This document shows positions 5,193 to 15,992 of a stretch of DNA of 64,000 bases, piece after piece; the stretch's first letter is position 1, and every line of letters begins with the position of its first letter. Below the pieces are notes generated by a model. That model did not search any database. It saw only the letters and a list, made by a program, of their open reading frames with translations, and was not told where the DNA came from. Position numbers and translations under genes: made by a program. The DNA lies in NCBI RefSeq assembly GCF_026230175.1, contig NZ_CP104208.1, forward strand, positions 558,001-622,000, written 5' to 3'. This stretch comes from Desulfovibrio mangrovi. Its GTDB lineage: Bacteria > Desulfobacterota > Desulfovibrionia > Desulfovibrionales > Desulfovibrionaceae.

Positions 5193-6926
5193 ATGTCCAA
5201 GATTCTCAGAATCAATACCAAGGATCGCTCCTATCGTTTCGAAGAACCCGGCCAGTATGCCGGTATGGGTGGCCGCGGACTTACGTCCCGTCTGGTGCTG
5301 AATGAAGTGCCCGCCGATATCCACGCCCTGAGCGGGGACAACAAGCTTGTTGCCGCCATCGGCCTTCTTTCCGGCACTGCTGCGGCGAACTCCGGTCGTA
5401 TTTCCGTTGGTGCCAAGTCTCCGCTGACCGGTACCATCAAGGAATCCAACTCCGGCGGTTCCTTCTGTCAGAAGCTCGCCCGTCTGAACATTCTGGCTGT
5501 GGTGCTGGAAGACAAGCCCGCCGATGACGCAGATTTCTGCAACATCGTTATCACCAAGGAAGGCGTGACCTTTGAAGACGCCGCTCCCATCGTGGGCAAG
5601 GGCACCTATGATTCCATGGATTTCATCATGGAAAAGTACGGCAAGAAGGCTTGCGGCATGCTCATCGGACCTGCCGGTGAAGCCTGCCTGACCGCTGCTT
5701 CCATCCAGTTCTCCGACCCCTGGGGCCGTCCTGCCCGTGCTGCTGGCCGCGGCGGTCTCGGTGCAGTTATGGGTTCCAAGAAGGTCAAGGCCATTGTCGT
5801 GGACGACACCAATGGCGAGCGTTTCGGCTACGCCGACGAAGAGAAGTTCAAGGCCGCTTCCAAGCGCTGGGCTGAAATCCTGCGCTCCCATCCCGTTACC
5901 GGCGAAGGTCTGCCCGGATTCGGTACCGCGGTTCTGGTGAACATCGTTAACGAAGCCGGTGCGTTCCCCACCAAGAACTTCCGCGGTGGCCGTTGTGATC
6001 ATGCTTCCGAGATTTCCGGCGAAAAGATTGCCGAATTCATCACCAAGCGCGGCGGCAAGGTCAAGGAAGGCTGTCACGCCGGTTGTATCATCCAGTGTTC
6101 CCAGAACTACGTGGATGAAAAGGGCGAGTACCTGACCTCCGGCTTCGAATACGAAACCGTGTGGGCTTTCGGTGGCAACTCCCTGATCAAGGACATCGAC
6201 CAGATCGCCGCCCTTGACCGCGCCTGTGACGACCTTGGTCTCGACACCATCGAGACCGGTAACGCCGTGGCCATTGCCATGGACGGCGGCGTGATTCCGT
6301 GGGGCGACGGCATCGCCGCTCACAAGATGCTGTACCGCATTCTGGATAAGAATGACTACCTCGGCAAGATCATCGGCAGCGGTGTGGACTTTGCTGCTCA
6401 GGCTTTCGGTGTGGACCGCGTGCCCACCGTCAAGGGTCAGTCCATGCCTGCATACGACCCCCGTGCCGCTAAGGGTATCGGCGTAACCTACGCCACTACC
6501 ACCATGGGTGCGGACCATACCGCCGGTTACGCCATCTGCCAGAACCTGCTCAAGGTCGGCGGTGACGTGAACCCGTTGGGCAAGCAGGGGCAGGTGGAAA
6601 CCTCCAAGGCGCTTCAGATTGCAACCGCAACCGTGGACGCTCTGGGCCTGTGCCTCTTCGTTGCCTTTGCCGTGCTGGATACTGCTGATGCCGCTCAGGT
6701 TATCTGCGATATGGTCTCCGCACGTCACGGTATCGAGTTCACCACCGATGACTTCGGCGCACTGGGCATCAATACTCTGAAGGATGAACTGGCATACAAC
6801 CGTGCCGCCGGTTTCACCAAGGAAGACGACCAACTGCCCGCCTTCATGATGAAGGAAAAGTTGGCTCCCCATAACGTCGTGTGGGACTTCACCACCGAAG
6901 AACTGCAGGGCGCTCTGGTCGACTAG
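5193..6926 (+). CDS. aor: Aldehyde:ferredoxin oxidoreductase (tungstopterin type)
   Basis: Oxidises aldehydes to carboxylic acids, passing electrons to ferredoxin, using a tungsto-bispterin and one 4Fe-4S cluster in the cytosol. At 577 aa it is close to the family norm. The N-terminal pterin-binding domain shows GMGGRGLTSRLV (residues 25-35) and SGRISVGAKSPLTG. Cluster ligands are C294, C298 and C302 (CHAGCIIQC, a C-x3-C-x3-C form), with a late cysteine in ALGLCLF as the likely fourth. AGAGG lies upstream of the ATG. It stands alone, with its own AT-rich promoter region and terminator. A MoaD/ThiS-like protein that could serve pterin synthesis is encoded 16 kb away. Substrate range is unknown. 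Confidence 0.93.
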   Translation: MSKILRINTKDRSYRFEEPGQYAGMGGRGLTSRLVLNEVPADIHALSGDNKLVAAIGLLSGTAAANSGRISVGAKSPLTGTIKESNSGGSFCQKLARLNILAVVLEDKPADDADFCNIVITKEGVTFEDAAPIVGKGTYDSMDFIMEKYGKKACGMLIGPAGEACLTAASIQFSDPWGRPARAAGRGGLGAVMGSKKVKAIVVDDTNGERFGYADEEKFKAASKRWAEILRSHPVTGEGLPGFGTAVLVNIVNEAGAFPTKNFRGGRCDHASEISGEKIAEFITKRGGKVKEGCHAGCIIQCSQNYVDEKGEYLTSGFEYETVWAFGGNSLIKDIDQIAALDRACDDLGLDTIETGNAVAIAMDGGVIPWGDGIAAHKMLYRILDKNDYLGKIIGSGVDFAAQAFGVDRVPTVKGQSMPAYDPRAAKGIGVTYATTTMGADHTAGYAICQNLLKVGGDVNPLGKQGQVETSKALQIATATVDALGLCLFVAFAVLDTADAAQVICDMVSARHGIEFTTDDFGALGINTLKDELAYNRAAGFTKEDDQLPAFMMKEKLAPHNVVWDFTTEELQGALVD

Positions 6927-7164: not shown

Positions 7165-8604
7165 GTGATTCCAAGACTGAACATCAGGCAAAAGATCATC
7201 CTCGGTTTCCTCATACCGTCCATCTGTCTTGGGGTGCTGACGGTCGTGTCGTATTCCAACCTGCTGCTTATCGAAAAGAAGACGTATTCGGTCGAATTCA
7301 TCGACGATATGGAGAACTTCATTCTCGAGTTCCGCAGACAGGAAAAGAACTTTTTGCTGTATGGCGAGAAGAGCAGCTACGACCTTGCCATCCGTGAAGT
7401 GGATGCCACGCTGGAGATGCTGCAACATCTGGACGCCTTCAGCCTTGATGCCCACGTTGAGGCAATGATTGGGGAGCTGCGTGACAGGATAGAGCAGTAC
7501 CGCGCCCGCATGGTCCGCATGTATGAGGTGGCCAGTTCCGGCGGTAAGAATCTGGATACGGAAATCGACAAGCTGCGAGACATCGGCAAGGATCTTGTTG
7601 ATCTGGCCGTGGAGATATCCAAGCTGGAGCGCAGCAATATTCTCAAGATCAACAAACACCTGAGAAGCCAGTTGGTATTCTCCATCATGGGTGTTTCCAT
7701 ACTGTTCCTCATCATTTTCTATATTGTGAGTACGCGGGTTCTCAAGCCCCTCAAGATCATCGAATTGACCACCATGCAGATAGCCCGCGGCAACTTCCAG
7801 CCTTTAGAGGTGCGTAAGGCCAACGACGAAATCCGGCAGGTGCAGGAGGCGTTCAACCGCATGGTGCAGGAGCTTGAGAAGCGTCAGGACCAACTCGTGC
7901 AGGCGCAGAAGCTTTCGTCAATCGGCACGCTGAGTGCGGGTATTGCCCATCAGGTGAACAACCCTCTCAACAATATTTCCACATCTGCACAGATTCTGCG
8001 GGACGTTGTGAAGGACAGTGTTGATCCTTTCGGGATGAAGATGCTGGGCAACATTGAGACCGAAACGGCCCGGGCCCGCGATATTGTGCGAGGCTTGCTG
8101 GAGTTTGCGCGGCATACGGAGCTGTCCATCAAGCTGGTCCCCCTGAAGGGCGTGGTGGACAAGGCCGTTCAACTGGTCTCTTCACAGGTTCCGCCCGGCG
8201 TTACGGTGACGGTGAATGTGCCGGAGGACATCCGTCTGGAACTGGACCCCCAGCGCATGGGCGAGGTGCTTCTCAATCTTGTTCTGAACGCCATTCAGGC
8301 CATTGAAACCCTGCCGGGAGAGATATCCCTCTATCTGGGCAATGATGCGCCGGAAAACATGGTCACGTTGATCGTGGAGGATACGGGCAAGGGCATCAAT
8401 GAAAATGACCTGCCGCATATCTTTGACCCCTTCTTTACCCGTAAGGAAGTGGGTAAGGGCACGGGGCTCGGGCTTTCCGTGGCGTACGGCATCATCGAAG
8501 AGTTCAAGGGCAGGATTCGGGCTGAGAGTCAGGAGGGGGTGGGCACACGCTTCATGATCGATCTGCCGTTGCCTTCTGCCAGTGCGGACGGGGGCGAGCA
8601 ATGA
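7165..8604 (+). CDS. Membrane sensor histidine kinase
   Basis: Autophosphorylates and passes phosphate to a response regulator. TM1 is about residues 10-30. The periplasmic part, 31-170, is all helical with EFRRQEKNFLLYG, like four-helix-bundle sensors. TM2 is 171-190, followed by a HAMP segment to about 243. The HisKA box has H262 in GIAHQVNNPLNN, then come an N box (LVLNAIQAI), DTGKGI and GKGTGLGLSVAYG. The sequence HQVNNP replaces the usual HEINNP. It starts with GTG, six bases after GGAG. Its stop overlaps the start of the sigma-54 activator (ATGA), so the two form a cognate pair. The ligand cannot be inferred. Confidence 0.92.
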   Translation: MIPRLNIRQKIILGFLIPSICLGVLTVVSYSNLLLIEKKTYSVEFIDDMENFILEFRRQEKNFLLYGEKSSYDLAIREVDATLEMLQHLDAFSLDAHVEAMIGELRDRIEQYRARMVRMYEVASSGGKNLDTEIDKLRDIGKDLVDLAVEISKLERSNILKINKHLRSQLVFSIMGVSILFLIIFYIVSTRVLKPLKIIELTTMQIARGNFQPLEVRKANDEIRQVQEAFNRMVQELEKRQDQLVQAQKLSSIGTLSAGIAHQVNNPLNNISTSAQILRDVVKDSVDPFGMKMLGNIETETARARDIVRGLLEFARHTELSIKLVPLKGVVDKAVQLVSSQVPPGVTVTVNVPEDIRLELDPQRMGEVLLNLVLNAIQAIETLPGEISLYLGNDAPENMVTLIVEDTGKGINENDLPHIFDPFFTRKEVGKGTGLGLSVAYGIIEEFKGRIRAESQEGVGTRFMIDLPLPSASADGGEQ

Positions 8605-9968
8605 ACCACTCGCGCATCCTGATTGCGGAAGACGAGATGATCGCCCGTGAAAACCTTTCCCACGTACTGACCCGCAAGGGGGCTGAAGTCGTCGCGGTGG
8701 AGAATGGCCGCAAAGCCATGCAGGCTCTTGCGGGCGGAGAATTTGATCTTGTCATATCCGATCTGCGAATGCCGGATATGGATGGCATGCAGTTGCTGGA
8801 GCATGTAAAGGGCACGGCACCTGACACCGAAGTGATCATCATCACCGGTTATGCCTCCATTGAAACTGCCGTGGAAGCCATGCGCAAGGGAGCGTATCAG
8901 TACCTTGCCAAGCCTATTCGCTTGGACGAGGTGTGCGTCATGGCGGAGAAGGCGCTGGAAAAGCGCCGGTTGCGTCAGGAGGTGGACTCTCTCCGCAGAC
9001 AGCTCAAGGCGTCTGATGCACCTGTCATCATTGGCCACAGTCCTGCAATACGGGCCCTTAAAGAGAATATTGAACAGGTTGCGCCGGTGGATTGCACCGT
9101 GCTTATTCTGGGTGAAACAGGCACCGGCAAGGAGTTGGTCGCCCGTTCCCTGCATGCGGGAAGCCAGCGCAGCGCCAACCGGTTTCTTGCAGTCAACTGT
9201 GCCTCGTTCACGGAAGAATTGCTCGCCAACGAACTCTTCGGCCATGAGAAGGCTGCCTTTACCGGAGCGCAGACCATCAAGAAGGGGCTGATAGAATCTG
9301 CGGACAAGGGTACCTTCTTTCTTGATGAAGTGGGCGATATGCCGCTCAGCATGCAGGCGAACCTGCTGCGTGTGCTGGAGACCCGCACTCTGCTGAGGGT
9401 GGGCGGCACCACCGATATTCCTGTGGACGTGCGCATTGTTGCTGCCACCAACCGTGACCTCAAGCTTATGGTGGAAGAGGGGACTTTCCGGCAGGACCTG
9501 TACTACCGTCTGAACGTCATTACGTTGCGTGTGCCTCCGCTTGCGGAACGCAAGGAAGACGTGGTGCTGCTGGCCAGCTTTTTTGCCAACCGTTTTGCCT
9601 CAGCGTTCGGCAAGAATATTACTGAGATAGATGACGAAGCCCTGCGCATTCTCATGCATTACCCTTTTCCCGGCAATGTGCGCGAACTGGAGAATCTGAT
9701 GGAGCGGGCTGTTGTGCTTTGCAACGGCGATACCATCGGCGTTGCGCATCTGCCTCACGACATGCGGGATGAACAGCATCTGACACGTCCCTGCGCGGGT
9801 GCAGCCTTTGAATTCGACGGTATTGTTACGCTGGACGAGAACGAGCGGCGTTACCTTGTATGGGTGCTGGAGCAGACGCAAGGCAACAAGACGCGTGCTG
9901 CCGAGTTGCTGGGGCTGAATCGCGGTTCGCTCTGGCGAAAGCTCAAGCGTTTCGGGCTGGACGAATAA
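8601..9968 (+). CDS. NtrC-family sigma-54-dependent response regulator
   Basis: An activator of RNA polymerase-sigma-54. The receiver domain (residues 5-120) has acidic residues E10/D11, phosphoacceptor D54 and K104. The AAA+ domain carries Walker A GETGTGKE (171-178), Walker B TFFLDEVGD and an ELFGHEKAAFTGA loop, in which the first Gly of GAFTGA is Ala218. The C-terminal Fis-type helix-turn-helix is TRAAELLGLNRGSLWRKLKR. It overlaps the kinase gene by 4 nt and ends at a strong terminator. Its likely target is the dyad pair and sigma-54 promoter 2.4 kb away at 12292-12470 (inference from position and site type). Confidence 0.93.
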   Translation: MNHSRILIAEDEMIARENLSHVLTRKGAEVVAVENGRKAMQALAGGEFDLVISDLRMPDMDGMQLLEHVKGTAPDTEVIIITGYASIETAVEAMRKGAYQYLAKPIRLDEVCVMAEKALEKRRLRQEVDSLRRQLKASDAPVIIGHSPAIRALKENIEQVAPVDCTVLILGETGTGKELVARSLHAGSQRSANRFLAVNCASFTEELLANELFGHEKAAFTGAQTIKKGLIESADKGTFFLDEVGDMPLSMQANLLRVLETRTLLRVGGTTDIPVDVRIVAATNRDLKLMVEEGTFRQDLYYRLNVITLRVPPLAERKEDVVLLASFFANRFASAFGKNITEIDDEALRILMHYPFPGNVRELENLMERAVVLCNGDTIGVAHLPHDMRDEQHLTRPCAGAAFEFDGIVTLDENERRYLVWVLEQTQGNKTRAAELLGLNRGSLWRKLKRFGLDE

Positions 9969-10036: not shown

Positions 10037-10079
10037 AGGGCCGTGTGACTCACTGTCACACGGCCCTTTCTGTTTTTTC
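10037..10079 (+). terminator. Intrinsic terminator of the kinase-regulator operon
   Basis: A 13-bp stem, AGGGCCGTGTGAC/GTCACACGGCCCT, with loop TCACT, then TTCTGTTTTTTC. Confidence 0.9.
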
Positions 10080-10170: not shown

Positions 10171-12201
10171 CTAGGCCTTGGGTTCCGGCTTCGGCAGCAG
10201 CACGGCCTCCACGGCCATCTCGATATTGCTGACGAACAGCAGTTCTACGGCGTTGCGGACCTCTTCGTCCATGGCCATCATCTCCGCCCTGTTGCGTTCA
10301 GGAAGGATCGCCAGTCGTACGCCGGCCTGCTGCGCCGCGAGTACCTTTTCACGCAGTCCGCTTACAGGCAGCACTCGGCCGCTCAGGGTGAACTCACCGG
10401 TAAGGGCCACGTCGCGGCGTGCCGGTCTGCCCGTCAGTAGTGAAATGAGCGCCATGCAGATGGTCATGCCTGCGGAGGGACCGTCTTTGGAGATGGCACC
10501 GGCAGGGATGTGCACGTGTATGTCGGAGCTTTCAAAGAACCCTTCGTCTATGCCGAACAGGGCAGCGTTGCTGCGCAGGTAGCTGAGAGCAGTCTGGGCG
10601 GATTCCTTGAGGATTTCTCCCAGCGAACCGGTCATGATGAGCTTGCCGCTGCCTTTCATGCGCGCCGTTTCAATAAAGATGATGTGGCCACCGGATTCGC
10701 TCCAGACAAGGCCGGTGGTTACGCCCGCGATGGGTTTTGCCGTAGCGGCTTCCAGCGAAAATTTGGGGTGGCCGAGCAGTGCGTGGATGTCTTTCTTCTG
10801 CACTGTCAGGGGGACCTGCCGTTCTTTCTGCAGAATCTGCAGGTTCAGCTTGCGGCATACCCCGCCGATTTCCCTGTTCAGGCTTCGCAGGCCTGCACCG
10901 CGGGTATACTCCGTCAGCAACGTATTCATGGCTTCCGGAGTGAAGGTGATGTCCTCAGGGGCGTAGCCGGTGGCACGGACCTGACGTGGGGCAAGATACT
11001 CAAGACCGATGTGGCGTTTCTCGCCAAGCGTGTAGCAGGAGAAGGGAATGGTCTCCATGCGGTCGCGGAGTGGGCCGGGCAGGTTCTCCAGCATGTTCGC
11101 CGTGGTGATGAACATGACCCGCGACAGGTCGAAGGGAATGTCCAGATAATAGTCGAGGAAGTGCCTGTTCTGTTCGGGATCGAGGATCTCAAGCAGTACG
11201 GAGGCCGGATCGCCCCGGAAGTCCTGTCCTATCTTGTCTATCTCGTCCAGCATGAACACGGGGTTGTTCACACCGCATTTGTTCAGTTCGCTGATGATGC
11301 GTCCGGCCATTGCGCCTACATACGTCCGCCTGTGGCCGCGCAGTTCGGCTTCGTCCCGCATCCCCGCTAGGGAAAGGCGGATGAACTTGCGCTGCAGCGC
11401 ATTGGCAACAGATCTGCCAATGGACGTCTTTCCCGTGCCGGGAGGGCCCGTAAAGCACAGAATGGGACCGGAAACAGAGCATGCCTGCGTCTTTCGGTCC
11501 AGAATGTCGCTTACGGTATCGCGCAGGATGTCCAGATTGAGAGGCTTGGGCAGGTAGTGAGCGGCTCCCTTGCGCAGGGCGTCCACCGCGTTATCCACTG
11601 TGGCGTAGCCGGTAACGATTATGAGCTGGGTGTCCGGCCATTCCGCCCGAACGCGTTCAAGCAGTCCGAGTCCGTCCACCTTCTGCATCTTCAGGTCTGT
11701 GACGATGCAATCCACATGCGTCTTTGCCAGAATATCAAGGGCTTCCTGACCGTTGGAGGCAGTAAGCACGTCGCATGACAGTTTGCCTACGGAGTAGGCC
11801 ATGTTGTCGCGGGAGATGTCTTCGTCATCCACCACCAGAACCGTGCTGCGGCGAAGGTGGCAGGTGATGTTGGAGGCAAGGTATTCCAGCACCCGCTGTT
11901 TTACGAGCGAAAGGCCGAAGTGCTCCTGATCAAGCACTTCCTCTGCATGAGCAAGATTCAGGTTGTCCTGTGAAGACGTGAGCCAGGGCAGGGAAAGCAG
12001 AAATTCCACATAGTTGATGCCAAGGCCGTATTCCGCAACGGAAGGATCCATCCGTTCCAGTTTTTCGATCTCGCTCTGCGCAACCCTCCGTACATTCTCC
12101 GGTAGTCGTGTCGCTTCAACGGCGCTTCGCAGTTCCGTGTGCTGGCTAGGTTCTGGTGCCGGTGCCGATGGTTTGGGTTCGCTTCTGGTGAACAATCCCA
12201 T
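10171..12201 (-). CDS. Lon-like protease with an internal response-regulator receiver domain
   Basis: A 676-aa ATP-dependent protease of unusual build. Residues 1-30 are Pro-rich. Residues 35-115 match the helical segment before the Lon AAA+ module (YVEFLLSLPWLT, HFGLSLVKQRVLEYLA). Residues 119-238 are a receiver: D125/D126, phosphoacceptor D169, T197, K219. The AAA+ follows with GPPGTGKTS (252-260), DEAELRGHRRTYVG and Walker B FMLDEID (D319/E320). The peptidase has S576 (DGPSAG) and K619, 43 residues apart as in Lon. The Lon substrate-recognition N-terminal domain is absent. The start has AGGAC upstream; a 23-codon extension is open but lacks one. It is convergent with the kinase-regulator pair and divergent from the sigma-54 operon. 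Confidence 0.9.
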   Translation of the reverse strand: MGLFTRSEPKPSAPAPEPSQHTELRSAVEATRLPENVRRVAQSEIEKLERMDPSVAEYGLGINYVEFLLSLPWLTSSQDNLNLAHAEEVLDQEHFGLSLVKQRVLEYLASNITCHLRRSTVLVVDDEDISRDNMAYSVGKLSCDVLTASNGQEALDILAKTHVDCIVTDLKMQKVDGLGLLERVRAEWPDTQLIIVTGYATVDNAVDALRKGAAHYLPKPLNLDILRDTVSDILDRKTQACSVSGPILCFTGPPGTGKTSIGRSVANALQRKFIRLSLAGMRDEAELRGHRRTYVGAMAGRIISELNKCGVNNPVFMLDEIDKIGQDFRGDPASVLLEILDPEQNRHFLDYYLDIPFDLSRVMFITTANMLENLPGPLRDRMETIPFSCYTLGEKRHIGLEYLAPRQVRATGYAPEDITFTPEAMNTLLTEYTRGAGLRSLNREIGGVCRKLNLQILQKERQVPLTVQKKDIHALLGHPKFSLEAATAKPIAGVTTGLVWSESGGHIIFIETARMKGSGKLIMTGSLGEILKESAQTALSYLRSNAALFGIDEGFFESSDIHVHIPAGAISKDGPSAGMTICMALISLLTGRPARRDVALTGEFTLSGRVLPVSGLREKVLAAQQAGVRLAILPERNRAEMMAMDEEVRNAVELLFVSNIEMAVEAVLLPKPEPKA

Positions 12202-12291: not shown

Positions 12292-12306
12292 GCTGCAAAT
12301 TGCAGC
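12292..12306. promoter_or_regulatory. Enhancer-like dyad, site 1
   Basis: GCTGCAAATTGCAGC, an inverted repeat with one central base. With its flank it is identical to site 2 over 19 of 20 positions (TGCTGCAA[A/T]TTGCAGCGCAT). Its centre lies about 182 bp upstream of the predicted sigma-54 start point. Confidence 0.75.
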
Positions 12307-12343: not shown

Positions 12344-12358
12344 GCTGCAATTTGCAGC
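12344..12358. promoter_or_regulatory. Enhancer-like dyad, site 2
   Basis: GCTGCAATTTGCAGC, the exact reverse complement of site 1, displaced by 52 bp (five helical turns), with its centre about 130 bp upstream of the predicted start point. The position and pairing are typical of NtrC-type upstream activating sequences. Confidence 0.75.
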
Positions 12359-12454: not shown

Positions 12455-12470
12455 TGGCACGCCATATGCT
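12455..12470 (+). promoter_or_regulatory. Sigma-54 (-24/-12) promoter
   Basis: TGGCACGCCATATGCT matches TGGCACG-N4-TTGCW at all seven -24 positions and four of five -12 positions, with GG (12456-12457) and GC (12468-12469) 10 nt apart. The predicted start is near 12481, 45 nt before the ATG at 12526. Confidence 0.85.
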
Positions 12471-12525: not shown

Positions 12526-13008
12526 ATGAAGATAATGAAAGCGCTTGAAAAAATAGCAACGGCTGTAGCCTTTGCAGAAGCAGGTGATTGGGACTCTGCG
12601 CTGGATATTATGCATACGGAAAAGACTTCAAAGAAGATCCTCATAGCCTATGAGGGAGAGCCTGATAATAGGCGGCTCATTGAATATGCCATCGGCATTG
12701 CAGATCGTGTGAAGTGCGACATGCTGTTCTCATATGTGGCAACCAGAAAGAAGGCTGAGAATCTTTCGCAAAGCTACATAGATGCTGTTAACAAGTCGTT
12801 TAATGATGCGTTTGAAAGAGAAGTTGAAGCTCTTAAGATGCATGATCTGAAGCAAAGTGTTCAGCATGTTGTTGTCTCAAACGATTTTTATGATGCAGTC
12901 AACTCGATTTGCAGGGAAGTTAAGAAGATTGAATTTGTCATACTTGGATGCAGCGAGCGTAATGCTGCACGGTTGCGGCTCAATATTCCATACTTCTTCT
13001 TCAAATAA
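12526..13008 (+). CDS. Usp-like protein with a short helical N-terminal module
   Basis: A 160-aa soluble protein. Residues 1-33 (MKIMKALEKIATAVAFAEAG, then DWDSALDIM) form a helical module that recurs in the next gene's product. From residue 37 the sequence KKILIAYEGEPDNRRLIEYA follows the start of the universal stress protein fold, ending in IEFVILGCSERNAARLRLN, but the usual G-x2-G-x9-G(S/T) nucleotide loop is not recognisable. The start is chosen downstream of the sigma-54 promoter; open codons further up overlap the promoter. The ribosome site (AGGT) is weak. It is the first gene of the operon. The gene is more AT-rich than its neighbours. Confidence 0.75.
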   Translation: MKIMKALEKIATAVAFAEAGDWDSALDIMHTEKTSKKILIAYEGEPDNRRLIEYAIGIADRVKCDMLFSYVATRKKAENLSQSYIDAVNKSFNDAFEREVEALKMHDLKQSVQHVVVSNDFYDAVNSICREVKKIEFVILGCSERNAARLRLNIPYFFFK

Positions 13009-13301: not shown

Positions 13302-13613
13302 ATGACCACTGTTCAGGAAAGAAGAAAGAAGGCGAAAGGGCAGGCCATTATCTTTGGCGCACTGAGTGTCGCACTGTATGCCGCCGTATTCAGCTTCGCT
13401 GATACCATGGTGCATCTGTTTGCCAAGGGCGGACTTTACACCGCACTGCCTATCGCCACGGTATTTCTGTTCTCGTACGTTCACGGCAATTTCACGGGCA
13501 ATGTGTGGACTGCCCTTGGTATTGAGGCTTCCGCCAAAGCCGGACGTGCAACCGAAAAGGCCGGCGCTGCAAAGCGTACCGATTCCCGCAACCGTGCGAC
13601 TGTAACCGCTTAA
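13302..13613 (+). CDS. Small membrane protein (103 aa)
   Basis: Not recognised as a named family. A basic N-terminus (TTVQERRKKAKG) precedes two hydrophobic segments, about residues 15-35 and 45-62, and then an Ala/Lys/Arg-rich cytosolic tail. GGAGG lies seven bases before this ATG; a GTG one codon earlier is too close. It lies 28 nt before the TauE/SafE permease gene and is probably an accessory subunit of that permease, judged by position only. Confidence 0.75.
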   Translation: MTTVQERRKKAKGQAIIFGALSVALYAAVFSFADTMVHLFAKGGLYTALPIATVFLFSYVHGNFTGNVWTALGIEASAKAGRATEKAGAAKRTDSRNRATVTA

Positions 13614-13641: not shown

Positions 13642-14712
13642 ATGCACGATTTGTTAGCAGAAAACCTGCGCTTCGTTGACCTCACGCTGGTCGGCGTCCT
13701 GTTCCTGTTCTTCGTCGGTTTCGTTGGCGGTCTCGTCAGCGGCTTCATCGGTTCAGGCGGCGCATTCGTTCTTACCCCCGGCATGATGAGCCTTGGCGTT
13801 CCCGGTCCTGTGGCCGTTGCCAGCAACATGTGCCACAAGTTCCCCAAGGCCCTCGTGGGCGCCATCAAGCGCTACAAGTATGGTCAGGTTGACATCAAGA
13901 TGGGGCTGATCATCGGCGTATCCGCTGAAATCGGCGTCCAGCTTGGTATTCAGATTCAGAAGTTCATTCTGGAACAGTGGGGCCAGGCAGGCTCCAACCT
14001 GTATGTTTCCTTTGCCTTTGTGTTCGTTCTGGTGACGGTGGGCAGCTTCGTTCTGAAGGATGCCATCCAGACCAAGCGTTCCGGTGGTGAAGAAAAGGTC
14101 ACCATGCTCGCCAAGCGTCTGCAGTCCATTGAGCTGTGGCCCATGATGACCTTCAAGGCCAGCAAGATCCGCATTTCCTTCTGGTTTACCGCTCCGGTCG
14201 GCCTTGCCGCCGGTCTGCTGGCAGCCACCATTGCGGTGGGCGGTTTTGCGGGTGTTCCCGGCATGATCTACATCATCGGTCTTTCCAGCCTCATGGCTTC
14301 CGCCACCGAACTGGTCGTGGCGTTCGTCATGGGTCTGGGCGGTACCATGGTATGGGCCTTCTACGGTATGGTGGATATCCGCCTCACGCTGATCATTCTC
14401 GCCGGCTCTCTGTTCGGCGTGCAGCTCGGCGCCATCGGCACCACCTACGTGAAGGACTATGCCATCAAGTTCGTTATGGCCACCATCATGCTGATCGTTG
14501 CTGTCAGCCGCGGTCTCGCCATTCCCAAGTACCTGAAGCAGCTTGAAGTCATCGGCTGGGATGCCGGTTTCATCGACATCATGAGCAAGGTCAGCTTTGG
14601 CCTCATGTGTTTTGCTCTGCTCGTGGGCGCATTCATCATCCTGAAGGCCATGATTCTGGGCCGCCGCGCTGAACGCCAGTTGGAGATGGAAGGGGCTGCA
14701 AGCCACGCCTAA
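13642..14712 (+). CDS. TauE/SafE-family permease
   Basis: Members of this family (PF01925) export or import sulfite, sulfonates, organosulfur acids or related anions across the inner membrane. The 356-aa protein has about 8 membrane segments. The first repeat carries the typical GLVSGFIGSGGAFVLTPGMM and the second has AATIAVGGFAGVPGMIYIIG. A cytosolic loop at about residues 145-170 is charged. AGGAG lies before the ATG. It is the main transport gene of the sigma-54 operon. In a sulfate reducer a sulfur anion is a plausible substrate, but the sequence does not fix it. Confidence 0.88.
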   Translation: MHDLLAENLRFVDLTLVGVLFLFFVGFVGGLVSGFIGSGGAFVLTPGMMSLGVPGPVAVASNMCHKFPKALVGAIKRYKYGQVDIKMGLIIGVSAEIGVQLGIQIQKFILEQWGQAGSNLYVSFAFVFVLVTVGSFVLKDAIQTKRSGGEEKVTMLAKRLQSIELWPMMTFKASKIRISFWFTAPVGLAAGLLAATIAVGGFAGVPGMIYIIGLSSLMASATELVVAFVMGLGGTMVWAFYGMVDIRLTLIILAGSLFGVQLGAIGTTYVKDYAIKFVMATIMLIVAVSRGLAIPKYLKQLEVIGWDAGFIDIMSKVSFGLMCFALLVGAFIILKAMILGRRAERQLEMEGAASHA

Positions 14713-14751: not shown

Positions 14752-15606
14752 ATGTACAAGAAGGTGCTCGTCGCATTCGACGGTACGGAGTCGGCAACCA
14801 ACGTGCTGGAACAGGCACTGGTTCTGGCCCGTTCGGAAAACGCTGCTGTCGACGTCGTGACCGTCATTCCCGGCTATCAGGGAGACCTGAGGCTTCTTGG
14901 CAACTCCCGCGTGCTGACTGAAATGCACGGCCATTACCAGACCTGTCTCGATTCCGCCATCAAAATGGCCTTGGCCCGCAATGTGCGGGCCAAGGCCCAT
15001 CTCCGCACCGGCGAGCCGCCGGAGGAGATTCTGCGCACGGCCGAAGAGATTCGGGCGGACCTTATCGTCATCGGCAAGCGCGCACGATTTTTACTGGATT
15101 CAATGCCCATCGGCTCAGTTGCTGACGACGTGATCAGGCAGAGCGATGCGGACGTACTGGTCATCTCCGGTGACAAGCAACTGGGGCTTGAGCGGATTTT
15201 TCTTGCCTATGACGGCACGGAAGGAGCCGATCTTGCGGCTCGTCAGGCCAGCGCGCTTGCGGCACGGTATGGAGCCGGGTTGTGCATCGGCATGACCTAC
15301 GAAATGGACATGGAGGCCTTCAGCCTTGCCCCTGAGCTGGAAGAGGCTCTGCACCGCAAGGCCCGTTCTGCCATCAATCCTGCAGTGGAATATGCCCGCA
15401 GGGCGGACGTGAAGCATGTGGAAACCGTCATCCGCCACGGCAATCCCTCGTACAAGACTCTTGTCGAGGAGGCAGCTGCCTGCAAGGCGGGGCTGCTTGT
15501 GGCGGGAGCCAGCGGCAGGGGCAGCTTGTCCCATGTGTTGTTGGGCGGCGTGGCAAGACGGTTGATTTCCCTGAGCACCTGTCCGGTGCTGATCGTGAAG
15601 GAGTAG
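14752..15606 (+). CDS. Tandem-domain universal stress protein
   Basis: Two Usp domains in 284 aa. The first starts MYKKVLVAFDGTESATNVLE and includes DLIVIGKRAR; the second starts near residue 146 (ERIFLAYDGTEGADLAARQA) and ends VAGASGRGSLSHVLLGGVAR, close to the G-x2-G-x9-G(S/T) ATP-binding pattern. Usp proteins are cytosolic stress or energy sensors and are often encoded beside transporters they modulate. GGGAGGAG lies just upstream. It ends two bases before the next gene, so translation is probably coupled. Confidence 0.9.
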   Translation: MYKKVLVAFDGTESATNVLEQALVLARSENAAVDVVTVIPGYQGDLRLLGNSRVLTEMHGHYQTCLDSAIKMALARNVRAKAHLRTGEPPEEILRTAEEIRADLIVIGKRARFLLDSMPIGSVADDVIRQSDADVLVISGDKQLGLERIFLAYDGTEGADLAARQASALAARYGAGLCIGMTYEMDMEAFSLAPELEEALHRKARSAINPAVEYARRADVKHVETVIRHGNPSYKTLVEEAAACKAGLLVAGASGRGSLSHVLLGGVARRLISLSTCPVLIVKE

Positions 15607-15608
15607 CC

Positions 15609-15992
15609 ATGGTTGCCGCGAAACAGGAAGCGACTGAGACTCAAGCACCGCAAGTTCTTCTTGGCGAGGCAGCGAATGAAGCCGCTGTTGCAGAACAGGA
15701 AGATGCCCAGCCGGTTGTGATATACCGTTATCTTGACGCGGATTCCGGCAAGGAGATTCCTGCGGAAACCGTGGACTGGGACGAGCCTGAATTGAGCGAT
15801 GGGGCTGTGGTGCACGTGCTGAAGGCCGAAGGCGGTAAACAGCACTATACAGTGAAGAGCATGGTCGGCGAGGACGTGGTGACCGTCTATCTGGACAAGG
15901 CGCGCAACATCCTCTGGCGCATGGTGTTCCTTGGCGTGCTGCTCACGGCCAGCTGGTTTGTTCTCGACTTCATCTTCGGAAAGATATTTTAA
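15609..15992 (+). CDS. C-tail-anchored hypothetical protein (127 aa)
   Basis: Not recognised. Residues 1-35 are Ala/Glu-rich and probably disordered. Residues 38-95 form a small beta-rich domain (VVIYRYLDADSGKEIP, then VVHVLKAEGGKQHYTVKSM). A single membrane segment lies at about 105-124 next to the C-terminus. GGAG lies 5 nt before the ATG, inside the stop region of the Usp gene. It is the last gene of the sigma-54 operon, before two hairpins, the second a clear terminator. Confidence 0.75.
   Translation: MVAAKQEATETQAPQVLLGEAANEAAVAEQEDAQPVVIYRYLDADSGKEIPAETVDWDEPELSDGAVVHVLKAEGGKQHYTVKSMVGEDVVTVYLDKARNILWRMVFLGVLLTASWFVLDFIFGKIF

Follow-up and report, generated by a model that had tools for sequence, protein, structure and literature searches.

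The closest described relative of the gene analyzed here is DVU3303 of Desulfovibrio vulgaris Hildenborough, which was described in 2011, together with DVU3304 and DVU3305, as a three-component system; the phosphorylation hypothesis put forward at that time is also the one that we discuss below. According to that study, DVU3305 controls DVU3302-3298 in addition to its own operon DVU3303-3305, and its authors name DVU3305 orthologues in other Desulfovibrio-type species as well as in Thermodesulfovibrio, Thioalkalivibrio and Dechloromonas, most of them accompanied by a lon-protease response regulator (PMC3333781). A list of DVU3305 targets also appears in PMC4641369. In a 2023 fitness screen, DVU3303, DVU3304 and DVU3305 were detrimental in 6.25 mM chlorate and had pairwise cofitness above 0.9; the target DVU3299 had a fitness of -2.3 in chlorate, so that its loss harms (PMC10102598). 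Since cells in chlorate benefit from losing the three genes but suffer from losing this target, the data do not describe a simple activator chain. Moreover, because DVU3303-3305 are treated as one operon, their cofitness may be polar.

The gene type is thus already in print and not new in kind, and the preliminary description of our locus, which knew of no functional account, was unaware of the 2011 description and of the 2023 mutant fitness data (PMC3333781, PMC10102598). Our search of the open-access literature, with subscription papers and preprints outside its scope, returned no further paper identifiable as dealing with such a protein, and the available portions of PMC12471899 and PMC8846402 hold no relevant passage. 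The architecture table of a 2008 survey of 117 Lon proteins contains no receiver, and the words receiver and response regulator are absent from its main text (PMC2605481).

We analyzed a 64,000-nucleotide stretch of the Desulfovibrio mangrovi genome, hereafter the window. Like DVU3303, its lon gene encodes a Lon-containing response regulator beside a histidine kinase and a sigma54 response regulator (counterparts of DVU3304 and DVU3305), and in both cases UspA-type and membrane-protein genes adjoin, including a putative anion transporter, as the two D. vulgaris papers have it (PMC3333781, PMC10102598). We draw this likeness from the published descriptions. The gene order differs: DVU3303-3305 are treated as one operon, whereas in the window lon is convergent with the regulator-kinase pair and divergent from the usp-tauE genes (Table 1).

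Table 1. Features of the locus in window coordinates
Feature	Position	Strand	Basis
Sensor histidine kinase with HAMP, HisKA and HATPase_c domains, presumed to serve both receivers	7165..8604	+	Pfam; linkage
Sigma54-dependent response regulator (REC, Sigma54_activat, HTH_8), convergent with lon	8601..9968	+	Pfam; receiver trees
Terminator-like hairpin between convergent genes	10037..10067	+	13 pairs
REC-Lon gene	10171..12201	-	676 aa + stop
Lon S16 protease domain, residues 467-668	10198..10803	-	Pfam
Catalytic Lys619 codon	10345..10347	-	91/91
Catalytic Ser576 codon	10474..10476	-	91/91
AAA+ large domain and lid, residues 245-461	10819..11469	-	Pfam + model
Walker A GPPGTGKTS, residues 252-260	11422..11448	-	sequence
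Receiver domain, residues 119-238	11488..11847	-	Pfam Response_reg + predicted fold
Phosphoacceptor Asp169 codon	11695..11697	-	invariant in 91/91 rows
Lon pre-AAA helical segment, residues 19-116, last helix 98-116	11854..12147	-	PDB alignment + AlphaFold model
Palindrome GCTGCAAATTGCAGC, presumed response-regulator site 1	12292..12306	.	sequence pattern
Palindrome GCTGCAATTTGCAGC, presumed second site, 52 bp away from the first	12344..12358	.	sequence pattern
Sigma54-like promoter TGGCACGCCATATGCT toward usp-tauE operon	12455..12470	+	one mismatch to pattern; not significant in window alone
Short Usp-like protein, N-terminal AVAFAEAG module	12526..13008	+	Usp match under Pfam cut-off
Small membrane protein	13302..13613	+	no Pfam family found
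TauE/SafE-type transporter	13642..14712	+	Pfam
Protein with two Usp domains	14752..15606	+	Pfam

Domain make-up and site of the receiver

The gene, which we call REC-Lon, is read on the minus strand from 12201 to 10171 as one stop-free translation of 676 aa, and in 70 other members and 20 relatives from a second phylum the match likewise lies within a single open frame. There is therefore no frameshift, and the possibility of two separate genes, raised in the preliminary description, can be set aside. Pfam finds Response_reg at residues 121-230 (E 4e-25), AAA at 248-385 (2e-23), Lon_lid at 410-461 and Lon_C at 467-668 (7e-73); the first of these E values, together with the predicted fold, rules out a chance match to the receiver. 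The LON N domain (PF02190) had no match in the Pfam search of the 676-aa protein, and the median number of residues before position 23 is 25 in the REC-Lon family versus 275 in ordinary Lons. The match to TIGR00763 reaches 666 bits (cut-off 608). Two hallmarks of LonA are present, namely a Ser-Lys dyad (S576/K619, 43 residues apart, in a KDGPSAG context) and an AAA+ module with Walker A and B, sensor and Arg finger, and so are two of response regulators: the pocket of DD, D, T/S and K and, in the model, the (beta-alpha)5 fold. REC-Lon is a LonA-type AAA+ protease with a nested receiver and without the LON N domain.

Alignment to known structures locates the insertion. A phmmer search of the PDB pairs residues 22-110 and 241-675 with residues 252-340 and 347-782 of Thermus Lon, which has 6 residues where REC-Lon carries its receiver. 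An AlphaFold monomer model from a 21-row alignment (mean pLDDT 81.7, pTM 0.69) contains a complete (beta-alpha)5 receiver at 120-243, from beta1 (120-124) to alpha5 (223-243). The Lon helix 98-116 stops three residues ahead of receiver beta1, and alpha5 stops three residues short of the AAA+ strand 247-251 that enters the P-loop; the block 201-210 has a pLDDT of 62. All 50 Foldseek matches listed for this model are Lon chains. The highest TM-score among them, normalized to target length, is 0.88 (7yuh_A); rmsd values span 4.8-10.3 over the list, and identity to bacterial LonA-type structures is 35-39%, with two at 33-34% (3m6a, 6v11).

These results bear out the preliminary description on several counts. 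It had nested the receiver between the Lon pre-AAA helical segment and Walker A, and Pfam, the PDB alignment and AlphaFold agree; its assignments of D169 and K219 and of an intact Ser576/Lys619 pair with 43-residue spacing are correct, these four residues being invariant in the 91 rows described below, and the usual Lon N domain, which it reported missing, is indeed absent from the Pfam matches. The domain search and structure prediction that it proposed matched Response_reg, AAA and Lon_C and gave a full receiver fold.

The joints on either side of the receiver are nearly fixed in length. From position 110 to 121 there are 10 residues in 91/91 REC-Lons, and from K219 to the first Gly of Walker A (G252) the number is 32 in 89 rows and 31 in the other 2. 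Such constancy across two phyla suggests a conserved geometry. In 71 ordinary Lons, the segment between columns 110 and 252 is 15 residues long in 61 cases, 16 in three and 31-54 in the remaining seven. An enlarged loop at the receiver insertion point was inspected in six ordinary Lons (L027, L052, L067, L071, L074, L086), all of them Anaerolineae-type records, and indicates that the site tolerates inserts.

At the N-terminus, the start at 12201 (MGLF...) fits an MxxFKK-like motif better than the longer open reading frame from 12270 does. This motif, at residues 1-6, occurs in 63 of 90 members (one of the 91 omitted; mean of 1.7 and at most 6 in shuffles) and perhaps serves membrane contact or self-recognition.

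Distribution, conserved residues and kinship of the receivers

The preliminary description expected similar genes in other Desulfovibrio genomes, which is true but too narrow. Within the order, 101 of 297 genomes, by our count, have a REC-Lon match beyond the range of ordinary Lons. In the window's phylum a match at E 1e-165 was found in 49 of 395 genomes, one of them partial (residues 245-672 only), and the phylum of a Thermodesulfovibrio record (Nitrospirota) contributes 24 of 198. The gene type is therefore present in at least two phyla. A further sample, from the phylum of G879, is the window's own phylum and repeats the same matches; the phylum of a Brocadiaceae record gave 0/149, a sample without a known positive and so uninformative by itself. 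Most of the named relatives (L009-L018) are deltaproteobacterial MAGs with Desulfo- and Syntropho- names. None of 61 matching plasmid records covers 80% of the query. The genome of the window has two more Lon genes, with open frames of 866 and 842 residues and no receiver in the match.

Three further genomes of the order have a REC-Lon with low-complexity inserts. In these records (L290, L291 and L292, genus g9) the inserts follow the lid, and in L290 and L291 they also lie inside the protease domain. Loss of the protease domain in this genus, where matches end at residue 453, was rejected for two of these three loci, as L290 and L291 run on through a complete protease; the L292 gene ends with its contig.

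Residue conservation was assessed in 91 rows from the two phyla: 71 rows comprising the window, the 10 receiver-bearing loci among the 80 of a first search and 60 drawn from about 144 further REC-Lon matches, plus 20 of 24 matches from the second phylum. Since this set was chosen on full-length similarity, the presence of both parts was itself selected, but the invariance of single residues was not. D125, D169, K219, K258, D319, R381, S576 and K619 are invariant, while D126, N133, T197, E320 and R439 each differ in a single row. At position 216 the aromatic residue is Y in 82 rows and F in 9. Among these relatives, neither a degenerate receiver nor a dead protease was found. The most conserved receiver elements measured are the beta4-alpha4 loop (0.80), alpha4 (0.75) and beta5 (0.71), and the least conserved elements are alpha5 (0.47) and the entry linker (0.42).

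The nested receiver is related to that of the neighboring sigma54 regulator. We built trees from 24 of the 71 Lon receivers, 18 of the 51 partner receivers and 40 of the 74 remaining receiver matches in this genome. In a first tree, 2 of 8 long-branch rows from the last group fell within the Lon/sigma54-regulator group; in a more careful tree these 8 rows were dropped, and the 24 Lon and 18 partner receivers split from the 32 others with support of 99/94. The same split occurs in 100% of 200 bootstrap trees, from 124 columns and with a bootstrap that had not settled. The tree does not unite the Lon receivers in a single clade (3 changes); such a clade, apart from the sigma54-regulator receivers, is not rejected (p-AU 0.168). 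Lon receivers are on average 45% identical to those of the sigma54 regulators versus 31% to the others. The two groups have I129, A130 and N133 of alpha1 in common, and N133, at 99% and 100% in the two groups, is outside the four commonest letters at that position in the 40 other receivers. Helix alpha1 of receivers is where kinases dock. With this kinship, the adjacent kinase may phosphorylate both receivers.

Neighboring genes and promoter elements

A histidine kinase and sigma54 response regulator pair lies within about 7 kb of lon in 51 of 71 loci, convergent and directly downstream in 27. In the second phylum 15 of 20 loci have it, 13 of them downstream of lon in the same direction. No pair was detected within reach in 20/71 and 5/20 loci, partly owing to contig ends: 3 of the 71 loci have less than 3 kb upstream and 8 less than 2 kb downstream. 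A transporter of the TauE or CitMHS/sodium-sulfate-symporter type is found nearby in 62/71 loci (15/20 in the second phylum); in 57 of the 71 it is divergent and upstream (TauE in 42, the other type in 15), as is a short Usp gene in 50. The scan for terminator-like hairpins yielded 9 sites versus 6.1 expected from shuffles.

Two elements upstream of lon suggest how the regulator may act. The pattern GCTGCAANTTGCAGC, to which the paired palindromes of the window conform, has no other exact copy in the genome and one more with one mismatch. One or more copies of a looser palindrome lie in 32 of 70 regions upstream of lon (one of the 71 loci, with a short upstream end, being omitted) and two or more in 16, the window among these, compared with 6 and 0 of 991 control pieces from the same loci and with a mean of 0.51 of 70, at most 3, in Markov shuffles; in the second phylum it is found in only 2/20. 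The palindromes suggest that the response regulator may control the neighboring Usp and membrane-protein genes. The sigma54 pattern in the window is no evidence by itself, with 16 matches versus 15.8 expected. Across 88 of the 91 upstream regions (three omitted), sites scoring at least 14 face away from lon in 32 and toward it in only 4, so that a sigma54 promoter for lon was rejected; the control values are 33 and 34 of 1724 pieces (about 2%). The Usp/transporter operon is thus most likely driven by the sigma54 regulator, with lon itself probably expressed by other means.

Several small genes of this region are worth recording. The N-terminal AVAFAEAG module of the short Usp-like protein (12526-12630; consensus KLExxxxAVAFAEAGExxTA) occurs either alone (about 42-60 aa, with a basic tail) or ahead of a short Usp-like domain, and those examined matched TPR-like or other families only below threshold. 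Its HMM matches at E <0.01 in 50 of 91 loci, 14 of which are seeds, and 38 of these, by our count, are divergent within about 0.7 kb of lon. The module stands beside lon in 20 of 40 REC-Lon genomes; as a dedicated partner of REC-Lon it was rejected, being found in 21/40 genomes with REC-Lon and in 21/40 without. The 103-aa membrane protein (13302-13613), with its GGLYTALPIATVFLFSYVHG stretch, has no Pfam or NCBIfam match and recurs between Usp and TauE genes at many loci. The Usp/TauE run closes with the gene for a 127-aa protein (15609-15992) that has no Pfam match; a relative exists in 7 of 8 same-genus loci (L147-L154) and in none of the rest of the 71.

Just upstream of the kinase lies an aldehyde:ferredoxin oxidoreductase gene (5193-6926). 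In D. vulgaris, the fitness screen reports a common chlorate phenotype for Aor and the DVU3303-type kinase system (PMC10102598). We rejected this gene as a system component: of the 91 loci, only the window and L147 have it close to lon.

Possible modes of control and comparison with known systems

We propose that this Lon is controlled by aspartyl phosphorylation, in parallel to sigma54-dependent transcription, and put the probability of this reading slightly above one half (about 0.55). The adjacent kinase would phosphorylate two related receivers, that of the sigma54 regulator and the Lon-nested one at D169. The phosphorylated regulator would then turn on the divergent Usp/transporter operon. 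In Lon, phosphorylation would move the receiver held between helix 98-116 and its own alpha5, which leads directly into the Walker-A strand, and ring assembly or ATPase/protease activity might be altered as a result. Phosphotransfer from this kinase to REC-Lon and the existence of a specific substrate are both presumed here; gating of the enzyme by phosphorylation, which the preliminary description had suggested, is plausible and has indirect support. We infer that gating most likely means switching on, given the 2011 hypothesis and the same-sign, possibly polar, cofitness. In favor of the proposal are the intact and invariant sites, the fixed joints, the related receivers, the recurrent gene linkage and the promoter elements at part of the loci; against it count the low conservation of alpha5 and the entry linker, the loci in which no kinase-regulator pair was detected, a receiver tree of 124 columns in which the Lon receivers form no clade, and the puzzling chlorate signs and possibly polar cofitness in D. 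vulgaris. More tentative, at a little under even odds, is the stronger form of the proposal, an aspartyl-phosphate switch in the ATPase motor of a processive protease, where a receiver sharing its origin with that of the sigma54 regulator directly controls the Walker-A strand and one kinase sets both transcription and degradation.

If gating is true, two-component signaling reaches an AAA+ protease without a separate adaptor, in a compact kinase-controlled degradation machine, and such a directly gated protease is present in at least two phyla. Existing D. vulgaris mutants and the invariant sites make gating directly testable, and the system may bear on the open chlorate phenotype of a sulfate reducer.

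The ClpXP adaptors RssB and CpdR link receiver phosphorylation to proteolysis, and the receiver might likewise be a built-in, phosphorylation-dependent substrate adaptor in cis, replacing the N domain without gating the ring. The missing LON N domain and the fully conserved receiver and phospho-site would suit this explanation, and RssB-type receivers rank with the better NCBIfam matches, even if numerous other receivers match as well. However, joints of fixed length and helix-to-strand connections speak for a rigid coupling, not for an arm that docks flexibly. Because the joints are fixed, we favor gating through the helix-strand joint and consider a cis adaptor unlikely.

Still less probable is constitutive proteolysis, with the receiver serving as a structural or dimerization insert or as a phosphate sink by which the kinase and the sigma54 regulator are tuned. 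The related receivers may indeed compete for one kinase, and the insertion point accepts other inserts, as the 31-54-residue segments of ordinary Lons illustrate. Yet protease and ATPase sites kept in all 91 rows would be needless for a mere sink, and a sink mutant should differ in sign from kinase and regulator mutants, contrary to the cofitness above 0.9 (possibly polar) in the fitness screen (PMC10102598). Negative feedback, with the protease resetting the pathway by degrading the sigma54 regulator or regulon products, is quite improbable: linkage to Usp and transporter genes would agree with it, but the cofitness with kinase and regulator, possibly polar, has the same sign in that screen (PMC10102598).

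REC-Lon resembles several known systems and differs from each of them. With LonA of E. coli, Thermus and Meiothermus it shares the pre-AAA helices, AAA+ module, lid and S16 Ser-Lys protease; unlike them, it has no N domain, and the loop preceding its Walker-A strand holds a receiver of about 120 residues. Lon of Xanthomonas citri is altered in activity, in an inhibitory manner, by phosphorylation of Ser654, but this is serine phosphorylation, with no receiver in the abstract, whereas in REC-Lon the predicted site is a receiver Asp (PMC5784255). The best PDB match of the REC-Lon receiver is 3eq2, a 'probable two-component response regulator', and NtrC-family regulators (NtrC1, NtrC, LuxO, AtoC) are among its closest receivers in the PDB and NCBIfam. 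They too place a receiver ahead of an AAA+ ATPase; however, theirs is N-terminal and leads to sigma54 activation, whereas that of REC-Lon is nested and its predicted output is protein degradation. Finally, RssB and CpdR are separate adaptor proteins, whereas the receiver of REC-Lon is fused to the protease.
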